Positions 53,574 to 57,042 of a DNA stretch of 64,000 nt are shown piece after piece. Location: the NCBI GenBank assembly GCA_017468465.1, contig JAFUIN010000019.1, forward strand, positions 1 through 64,000. Reading direction: 5' to 3'. Positions within the stretch are counted from its first letter, which is position 1. Every line of letters begins with the position of its first letter. The position numbers and the translations under genes were made by a program. Below the pieces are notes generated by a model that saw nothing but the letters and a program-made list of their open reading frames with translations, had not been told where the DNA came from and did not search any database. The stretch comes from Clostridia bacterium (GTDB lineage Bacteria; Bacillota; Clostridia; UMGS1840).

Positions 53574-54830
53574 TTATTGGGAATGGCCTGATAAAATTTC
53601 AAAAAGGTCCTGATACAAATACAAGGAACCGCATACTACAATCAGCTTCTTTTGTTTTGTTGCGTATGCGATCGCTTCTTTCAAGGTGTCAAAAGCCTTT
53701 GCTTTTACTCCGGCTTCTTTGCCGATGCTGCACAGGTTTTCCGGCAATTCTGCCCGTTCGTTATGTTGTACAGTTGTAAAACAGAATTCTTCTCCCGAAA
53801 ACACTTCCAAACTGCTTTTGATATCTTTATCCTTCATAAATGCAGATACAAAAATTTTATCGCAATCGGGATAATATCGTTCCAGACTTTTTTTCAAAGC
53901 AAGCATGCCGTTTAAGTTATGTGCTCCGTCAAAAAGAATCGTATCGCCAATATGCTCCAGCCGACCAATGTGTCTGGCTTCTTTCAGCCCTTTTCTGATA
54001 AATTCTTCCGATATTCCCAACAACAAGGAAGTTTCCACTGCCAGACAAGCGTTTTCTACCTGATGATAACCGGAAATGCCGCAAACAAGATTTGTTAAGT
54101 TTTTGTAAGAAAACACTTCAAAACATTTTTTTGGAGTATGAATTTTTGGTTTTTGAGTCACCAAAACAGGAGCATTTTTTTCCTTTGCCACTTCGTTTAA
54201 CACGTCTAAAGCTTCTTTTTCTTGCTCTAACGTTACAAGCGGAACTCCTTGCTTTATAATGCCTGCTTTTTCAAAAGCTATTTTTGAAATGGTATCGCCC
54301 AAATATGCAACATGGTCCACTGCAATTCTGGTAATCACAGCACAAAGCGGTTTAGAAACCACATTGGTGGCATCAAATCGTCCGCCAAGACCGGTTTCCA
54401 AAACCACAATATCACAATTTTGTTCCAGAAAATAACAAAATGCAACCGCTGTCCAGACTTCAAATTGAGATGGAATTTCGCCGGTTGCCTCCTTCACCGT
54501 TGGCAAATATGCTTCAATTTTTGAAAGCAGGCGTTCTAAATCAGCATCGGAAATTTCTGTTCCGTCAACCGAAATTCTTTCATTCACCCGAAGCATATTT
54601 GGAGAAATGAATTTGCCTGTTTTTTTTCCTGATGCCGTGAGAATAGATTGCAAAAAGGAACAAACAGAACCTTTTCCGTTTGTCCCTGCAACATGAATCA
54701 CTTGTAATTGATTTTGCGGATTGCAAACGCAATCCAGTAATTTCAAAATACGTTCCAGCCCTAAATTGATAACTGTTTGAAAGCTGTTGGCATAACGAAT
54801 AAATTCTTTTGATGAATCCAAAATTAACAC
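53574..54830 (-). CDS. folC: Folylpolyglutamate synthase (FolC)
   Basis: Mur-ligase-fold enzyme adding glutamate residues to folate, and in many bacteria also making dihydrofolate from dihydropteroate. VAGTNGKGSVCSFLQSIL (P-loop), FISPNMLRVNERI, VVLETGLGGRFDATNV and LFDGAHNLNGM are the family motifs. 418 residues. It follows folT by nine bases under a THF riboswitch, so polyglutamylation here is likely coupled to folate uptake. No other folate gene is next to it. Confidence 0.96.
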   Translation of the reverse strand: MLILDSSKEFIRYANSFQTVINLGLERILKLLDCVCNPQNQLQVIHVAGTNGKGSVCSFLQSILTASGKKTGKFISPNMLRVNERISVDGTEISDADLERLLSKIEAYLPTVKEATGEIPSQFEVWTAVAFCYFLEQNCDIVVLETGLGGRFDATNVVSKPLCAVITRIAVDHVAYLGDTISKIAFEKAGIIKQGVPLVTLEQEKEALDVLNEVAKEKNAPVLVTQKPKIHTPKKCFEVFSYKNLTNLVCGISGYHQVENACLAVETSLLLGISEEFIRKGLKEARHIGRLEHIGDTILFDGAHNLNGMLALKKSLERYYPDCDKIFVSAFMKDKDIKSSLEVFSGEEFCFTTVQHNERAELPENLCSIGKEAGVKAKAFDTLKEAIAYATKQKKLIVVCGSLYLYQDLFEILSGHSQ

Positions 54831-54839
54831 GTTCCTTTT

Positions 54840-55355
54840 CTATAATTCTTGAATATGTGGCTTGAGAATACGAAATATAATCGTAAGCACAAAATACTGA
54901 ATCGGCATTTTAATTAAAATCATCACAAAGCGCTCCACAAAAACTGCCCAATATAAATGCAGTCCGCTGCGATAAATTGCGCCCCACAAAGAACCAAGCA
55001 ATAAATCAACAACCACGCCCTGAACAACAACCAAACACAATATTCTGCCCCAATGTTTTTCCTTTTTACAGAGAAAACAACCATACAAAACGCCGTGCAG
55101 CACAGCATTCAGAGTCCATGGGAAAAAATATGCCATGCCTTTACTGTTGATAAGCATTCCCAAAATATCAGCTGCACCAGCTGTCAAGCCACCCCAGACA
55201 GGACCAAATATTGCCCCGGAAACAGCCAGTGGAATAAAACCAAAATCCAGCCTGGTAACCGGTGTTTGAAACGACAATAACCGCACAAACACAATGTTCA
55301 TAGCAATGAGTAATGCAAGATAACAAATCCTGCGAATGTTTTTTTGTTGTGACAT
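54840..55355 (-). CDS. folT: Folate ECF transporter S component FolT
   Basis: Small membrane protein of 171 residues with five to six hydrophobic segments. The opening (RRICYLALLIAMNIVFVRLLSF), the substrate-binding part (RLDFGFIPLAVSGAIFGPVWGGLTAGAADILGMLI) and FPWTLNAVLHGVLYG match folate-type energy-coupling-factor S components. A THF riboswitch upstream and folC downstream support folate over other vitamins. The shared ECF ATPase/T genes are not in the window. ATG 55355 follows AAAGGA, which lies inside the riboswitch's expression hairpin. Confidence 0.93.
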   Translation of the reverse strand: MSQQKNIRRICYLALLIAMNIVFVRLLSFQTPVTRLDFGFIPLAVSGAIFGPVWGGLTAGAADILGMLINSKGMAYFFPWTLNAVLHGVLYGCFLCKKEKHWGRILCLVVVQGVVVDLLLGSLWGAIYRSGLHLYWAVFVERFVMILIKMPIQYFVLTIIFRILKPHIQEL

Positions 55356-55391
55356 AAAAAAATCCTTTCTTGTACCACACTACAAAAAGGA
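55356..55391 (-). promoter_or_regulatory. Expression hairpin of the THF riboswitch: terminator and SD sequester
   Basis: On the minus strand TCCTTTTTGTA (55391-55381) pairs with TACAAGAAAGGA (55374-55363) around a six-base loop, followed by seven T and then the folT ATG. The 3' arm contains the Shine-Dalgarno AAAGGA, so the same hairpin could block translation and, with its U-run, terminate transcription. Confidence 0.8.
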
Positions 55392-55439
55392 CAGCAAAAC
55401 ACCGCAATCAACACGGCAAATGTATTCTTTTGTAGCAAC

Positions 55440-55545
55440 GGAATGCGGAAATAACATCGCAGATTTTATTTCAAATAATCTTTCGTAAAAGAGACAACTT
55501 CCCGTTCTCTTTTCACTTGACGCATTATTTCCTACTCTGCTTTAT
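55440..55545 (-). ncRNA. Tetrahydrofolate (THF) riboswitch
   Basis: Read on the minus strand from 55540, the leader matches the THF riboswitch consensus in order: GAGTAGG, then GCGTCAAGTG, then GAACGGGAAGTTGTC, then ACGAAAG. Helix P2 is GGAAATAA (55538 side)/TTATTTCC (55454-55447). Helix P3 is AAAAGAGA/TCTCTTTT around the conserved loop. Further helix AGATT/AATCT. P1 is poorly resolved. The class senses THF and related folates, usually turning folate uptake off. It lies between its promoter and folT. The 3' GAATGCGG can also pair with TAATGCG of the core, a possible switching element. Confidence 0.92.
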
Positions 55546-55572
55546 AGGAACATCAATTTATCCTATGGAATA

Positions 55573-55601
55573 ATCATACACCTTATGTAGAAATTTGTCA
55601 A
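55573..55601 (-). promoter_or_regulatory. Promoter of the folT-folC operon
   Basis: TTGACA (55601-55596), 17 bases, TATGAT (55578-55573) on the minus strand, placing the transcript start about 25 bases before the THF riboswitch core. Confidence 0.85.
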
Positions 55602-57013: not shown

Positions 57014-57042
57014 ATTATATCATTATCCAGATTTAATGTCAA
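57014..57042 (-). promoter_or_regulatory. Promoter of the M20 amidohydrolase gene
   Basis: TTGACA (57042-57037), 17 bases, TATAAT (57019-57014) on the minus strand. Confidence 0.88.

Follow-up and report, generated by a model that had tools for sequence, protein, structure and literature searches.

Known targets of the THF-I class of riboswitches (RF01831) include folT, folC and folE genes (PMC9881143), and in this class the binding of THF controls the stability of the P1 helix of the aptamer (PMC11477058). In the THF-II (folE motif) riboswitch of the Rhizobiales, the RBS is located inside P1 of the aptamer (PMC6800512). Dual transcription/translation expression platforms are a published riboswitch category, in which a terminator-like hairpin carries the RBS on its 3′ side and lies no more than 10 nt from the start codon (Barrick and Breaker, 2007; PMC2258182); that survey is older than the THF-I class.

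Here we describe a THF-I switch in 64,000 nt of a Clostridia bacterium genome (contig JAFUIN010000019.1, positions 1 to 64,000; hereafter "the window", in whose numbering the coordinates of this locus are given). The riboswitch is complete and of the THF-I class, and its platform is of the dual type. Its aptamer is the same as that of the class, being full with P1 and the conserved core and showing no difference, and its platform is the combined Shine-Dalgarno (SD) and U-run form. The THF-II riboswitch shares with it the ligand and the occlusion of the RBS, but has an unrelated fold. The RBS is placed as in the dual platforms of Barrick and Breaker (2007; PMC2258182), with a hairpin that contains it in the 3′ arm and is separated by 7 nt from the AUG. 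Taken by itself, this is a textbook folate riboswitch, and we consider the comparative result to be more useful; the points that a specialist may not expect are the comparative enrichment of its layout and a fusion of FolT with FolC.

The riboswitch locus

The elements of the locus follow one another on the minus strand in the order (5′ to 3′) promoter, short 5′ hairpin, THF aptamer, linker with a variable hairpin, off-hairpin, U7 and the AUG of folT. An earlier note on this DNA, made from its letters alone, had reported a consensus promoter, a leader with a THF riboswitch core, and a hairpin with the folT SD in its 3′ arm followed by seven U before the AUG, and all three were borne out. The promoter is of the sigma-70 type and near consensus (TTGACA-17-TATGAT, 55601–55573, 11/12 matches), and its spacing would place the transcript start near 55566. 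The short 5′ hairpin (AUAGGA...UCCUAU, 55544–55566), identified by computed folding, adjoins the 5′ side of the aptamer. The fold z-score of the whole leader was uninformative (−1.07).

Upstream, on the same strand, a terminator-like element (55670–55636; stem of −10.0 kcal/mol, then U7) presumably serves as the intrinsic terminator of an M20 peptidase-family gene and sets the riboswitch transcript apart from that gene. Upstream of the M20 gene is a further sigma-70 promoter (57014–57042), a perfect 12/12 match with an extended TG.

A covariance search with RF01831 gave a full-length match to the aptamer (55434–55541, minus strand; model positions 1–99 of 99) at 87.2 bits, relative to a gathering cut-off of 36 (E = 6.6e-19), and no non-canonical pairs are marked in the alignment. 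P1 consists of AGCA (55538–55541) paired with UGCU (55434–55437). No other Rfam match was found in the window and no other THF switch in the assembly (1.51 Mb). The aptamer stands upstream of the folate transport and synthesis genes folT and folC as identified with NCBIfam.

The off-hairpin (55362–55392, minus strand; GUCCUUUUUGUA-gugugg-UACAAGAAAGGAU) is predicted to be a terminator and SD-sequestering stem in one. It has one bulged G and an energy of −9.9 kcal/mol; when the local region was shuffled, 2.1% of the sequences reached as stable a fold. The folT SD, AAAGGA (55363–55368), is fully paired in its 3′ arm, at a distance of 7 nt from the AUG. The U7 tract (55356–55362), the predicted termination zone, lies between the SD and the AUG (55353–55355) and abuts the latter without a gap. 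At −8.5 to −9.9 kcal/mol, this A-U rich stem is weak as terminators go. On trimmed stems, a terminator index of standard form, of which only relative values count, was 3.9 for the off-hairpin and U-tract vs. 6.1 for the terminator of the upstream gene. The off-hairpin was missing from the output of a pattern-based terminator scan, probably because of the bulge.

The proposed switch helix

Between the aptamer and the off-hairpin is a linker of 41 nt that holds a small variable hairpin. The 3′ strand of P1 together with the next 7 nt forms UGCUACAAAAG (55427–55437, minus strand), which is invariant in the four genus members that have the switch. Its partner by pairing and fold, UUUUUGUAGUG (55378–55388, minus strand), consists mostly of the 5′ arm of the off-hairpin. 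The UGCUACAAAAG/UUUUUGUAGUG helix draws on bases of P1 as well as of the off-hairpin, and neither of these can form alongside it. The loop between the two switching strands contains the variable intermediate hairpin UGCCGUGUUGAUUGCGGUG (55400–55418, minus strand), recognized by genus comparison.

We examined the equivalent pairing throughout the class, where it proved to be strongly non-random across 38 Clostridia families. Over 86 loci the duplex of the P1 3′ region with the downstream leader had a mean energy of −12.9 kcal/mol for cognate combinations vs. −8.7 kcal/mol (sd 0.28) for permuted ones. When each family was represented by one locus, the cognate mean was −13.4 kcal/mol, vs. −8.9 (sd 0.45) for permuted combinations and −7.9 (sd 0.36) for dinucleotide-preserving shuffles of the same leaders. 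As the shuffles reach only −7.9 kcal/mol, base composition does not explain the class-wide pairing. Within the window taken alone the UGCUACAAAAG/UUUUUGUAGUG duplex was not significant, with 17.6% of shuffles as good, and consequently the support for the switch helix is comparative, from conservation.

A different switching strand had been suggested in the earlier note, namely GAATGCGG, at the 3′ side and pairing with the core. This was a strand error. The motif, found at 55441–55448 on the plus strand only, is the reverse complement of the aptamer's conserved core and is absent from the RNA, which reads CCGCAUUC there, a conserved part of the aptamer; as a pairing partner the motif is not conserved. 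The nearest motif in the RNA, GAUUGCGG, can make five contiguous pairs with the core in the window (UGCGG with CCGCA), but it lies inside a hairpin that varies between genus members, and the segment that matches it is missing in two of the four. It is thus very improbable that GAATGCGG, or GAUUGCGG in the RNA, acts as the switching strand by pairing with the aptamer core, and on sequence comparison UGCUACAAAAG with UUUUUGUAGUG appears to be the better-supported switch helix.

Proposed mechanism

We consider it probable that the locus is a THF-I OFF switch on the folT-folC operon in which one hairpin serves as both terminator and SD sequestor. When reduced folate is low, P1 would be weak and its 3′ strand (UGCU with ACAAAAG) would pair with UUUUUGUAGUG as the latter emerges from RNA polymerase. 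With the 5′ arm of the off-hairpin occupied by this antiterminator, the polymerase would pass the U-tract, the SD would be free, and the importer and FolC would be made. When THF is bound, P1 would be held shut and block the antiterminator step, so that UUUUUGUA could pair with UACAAGAAAGGA, the strand that contains the SD. The resulting off-hairpin would cause termination within the U7 tract, ahead of the AUG, or else hide the folT SD in the transcripts that escape. We infer the response to the ligand, the direction of the switch and actual termination.

Folding of the growing transcript, calculated at equilibrium and with no ligand energy, produced P1 first, then the antiterminator, which outcompeted P1 as soon as the 5′ arm of the off-hairpin had emerged (at 192 nt, mean pair probability 0.69), and then the off-hairpin, which took over once its 3′ arm was complete (0.82–0.85). 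For the full-length RNA without ligand, the energies were −47.8 and −45.5 kcal/mol for the constrained OFF and ON states, respectively, and −50.2 kcal/mol for the free minimum. These values favor the off-hairpin even without ligand, implying either that switching is kinetic, through trapping of the antiterminator, or that the computed values err by a few kcal/mol.

Conservation in the genus and the class

Three further species of the genus carry the switch, and their FolT proteins are 59–64% identical to that of the window. In the leaders of the genus members with the switch, CCGUUGCUACAAAAGAAUAC and UCCUUUUUGUAGUGUGGUACAAGAAAGGAUUUUUU are almost unchanged, and all four members show hardly any difference in the two switching strands or in the hairpin-U7-AUG block. 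The variable loop of the aptamer and the intermediate hairpin in the linker vary in sequence, the latter retaining short complementary arms despite the change. Neither the THF switch nor folT was detected in another genus member, G003 (92% complete). A degenerate or non-responsive riboswitch that is kept by chance is extremely improbable, as the covariance score is high with no broken pair marked, the promoter and operon are intact, and the block is conserved in four species whose FolT proteins have diverged to the extent given above.

In related genomes the THF switch was found in 88 of 148. Our survey of expression platforms covered about 90 oriented THF loci, with the weak matches in G110, G083 and G048 left out, and a first gene was called in 90. 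Of these first genes 85 were FolT-like, the others being FolC, FolE or a more distant S component.

T-runs of at least six before the start codon were present at 35 of 89 THF-riboswitch genes vs. 7 of 308 ordinary starts (p = 3e-19), the latter drawn from the window and from 20 stretches of related genomes; three of those seven are themselves THF-regulated first genes, including folT of the window. There was no A-run counterpart to this enrichment at the THF starts. Among the 49 called starts in the window, folT alone has a T-run of at least six within 12 nt, and among 95 starts in the window and genus samples there was one such case.

These counts bear on whether the hairpin acts on translation, on transcription, or on both. 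If the switch were a translation-only OFF switch, the hairpin would hide the SD, the U7 would be a mere unstructured spacer and the polymerase would read through. The A-U rich stem is in keeping with this, as are the many loci of the class that have a T-run shorter than five and still pair the SD in a hairpin, and U-rich spacers would have the merit of not pairing with the pyrimidine-rich 5′ arm. However, T-runs of at least six are ~17-fold commoner at the THF genes than at ordinary starts (39% vs. 2.3%), and in 18 of the 38 families the T-run directly abuts the SD-containing hairpin, which ends at the U-run. Ordinary starts, moreover, prefer A-rich spacers, and A-runs of at least five are absent from the THF set. 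The terminator index, in relative values only, was above zero at 24 of 35 loci with a T-run of at least six vs. 2 of 38 with a T-run shorter than five. We regard translational control alone as rather unlikely.

The opposite view, that the terminator does everything and the overlap with the SD results just from the compact leader, is consistent with the position of U7 directly after the stem, as a terminator this close to the AUG could not avoid the SD. Many THF loci of the class nevertheless keep an SD-pairing stem without any U-run, from which it is evident that SD pairing is kept in its own right, and we regard purely transcriptional switching as improbable. As to the OFF switch with a hairpin of both functions, the earlier note had already proposed that one hairpin could act on transcription and translation; the layout behind this proposal is kept in the genus and recurs in the class, and termination itself stays at the level of prediction.

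The SD-hairpin-U-run-AUG layout greatly exceeds its background frequency and is present in many families, and dual control may thus be frequent in the THF-I class and not a one-off. We judge the odds to be even that THF-I riboswitches of Clostridia commonly rely on a single hairpin for both termination and SD sequestration (18 of the 38 families sampled), related clades differing mainly in whether they have the U-run. If so, the class would constitute a natural series for measuring moves between transcriptional, dual and translational control.

Several loci of the survey were unusual in other respects. At L018 and L020 (in G036 and G068, respectively) the aptamer is 211 nt from the called start, an unusually long leader that contains a separate strong hairpin; either these two have a platform of another kind or their starts were miscalled. 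Two genomes have two or three THF switches each, G144 (L061, L064, L028) and G095 (L070, L083), and these precede different genes, encoding FolT-like or other S components and FolE. The aptamer of L032 (G001:C17:9990-10142) has one variable loop ~45 nt larger than that of the window.

Coupling of folT and folC

The NCBIfam assignments confirm the folT-folC operon behind the switch that the earlier note had described. FolT (54840–55355, minus strand; 171 aa) is a folate-family ECF S component (TIGR04518, 109.7 bits, cut-off 60) that matches the members of this family (TIGR04518; PDB 4z7f, 4huq, 5d3m) over nearly its whole length with no difference noted; its nearest solved chain is 4z7f_A (E = 3.5e-24), and a FolT search of genome contigs returned one relative only. 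The folylpolyglutamate/dihydrofolate synthase gene folC (53574–54830, minus strand; TIGR01499, 351 bits) is the sole folC of the genome above the family cut-off. Its listed start is GTG 54830, and an alternative, TTG 54821, has better SD spacing. Either start is in the frame of folT after a single TAG (54821–54842). An SD-like AAAAGGA is located between the two genes. The arrangement of the junction suggests translational coupling.

Folate physiology was considered for the whole genome, a 96% complete draft, in which DHPS, FolE, DHFR_1 and ThyA were not detected, although absence from a draft is no proof. ThyX, one FolC over the cut-off and two EcfT/CbiQ family matches are present. The occurrence of ThyX without detected DHFR_1 or ThyA is consistent with the use of imported reduced folates only. 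Given the four enzymes not detected, the folT-folC operon appears to be the main folate acquisition route found, and the gene content fits a scavenger of reduced folates that would import them via FolT and trap them by FolC. If so, one signal would set both the uptake and the retention of an essential cofactor.

The coupling of folT with folC, from which the earlier note inferred joint control of uptake and polyglutamate trapping, is real but is not general, as a same-strand folC was found within the fetched downstream stretch at 18 of the 90 THF loci (2 with folC first, 1 fusion); at 22 of the 72 loci without folC, this stretch extended to about 0.9 kb at most. Three species of genus g78 encode FolT and FolC as a fusion, in a single open frame, and in all three a THF switch lies upstream: L116 (G119:C4:10406-12148), L117 (G151) and L118 (G150). 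Among the matches listed from 290 genomes of the class there was no other uninterrupted full-length fusion match, and a limited literature search found no published report of such a fusion, although an earlier one is possible. The G119 fusion has 581 aa, with the S component at residues 9–164 and FolC at 195–580, and the other two show 57–66% identity. The fusion is the extreme form of the link between uptake and trapping that the earlier note had inferred.
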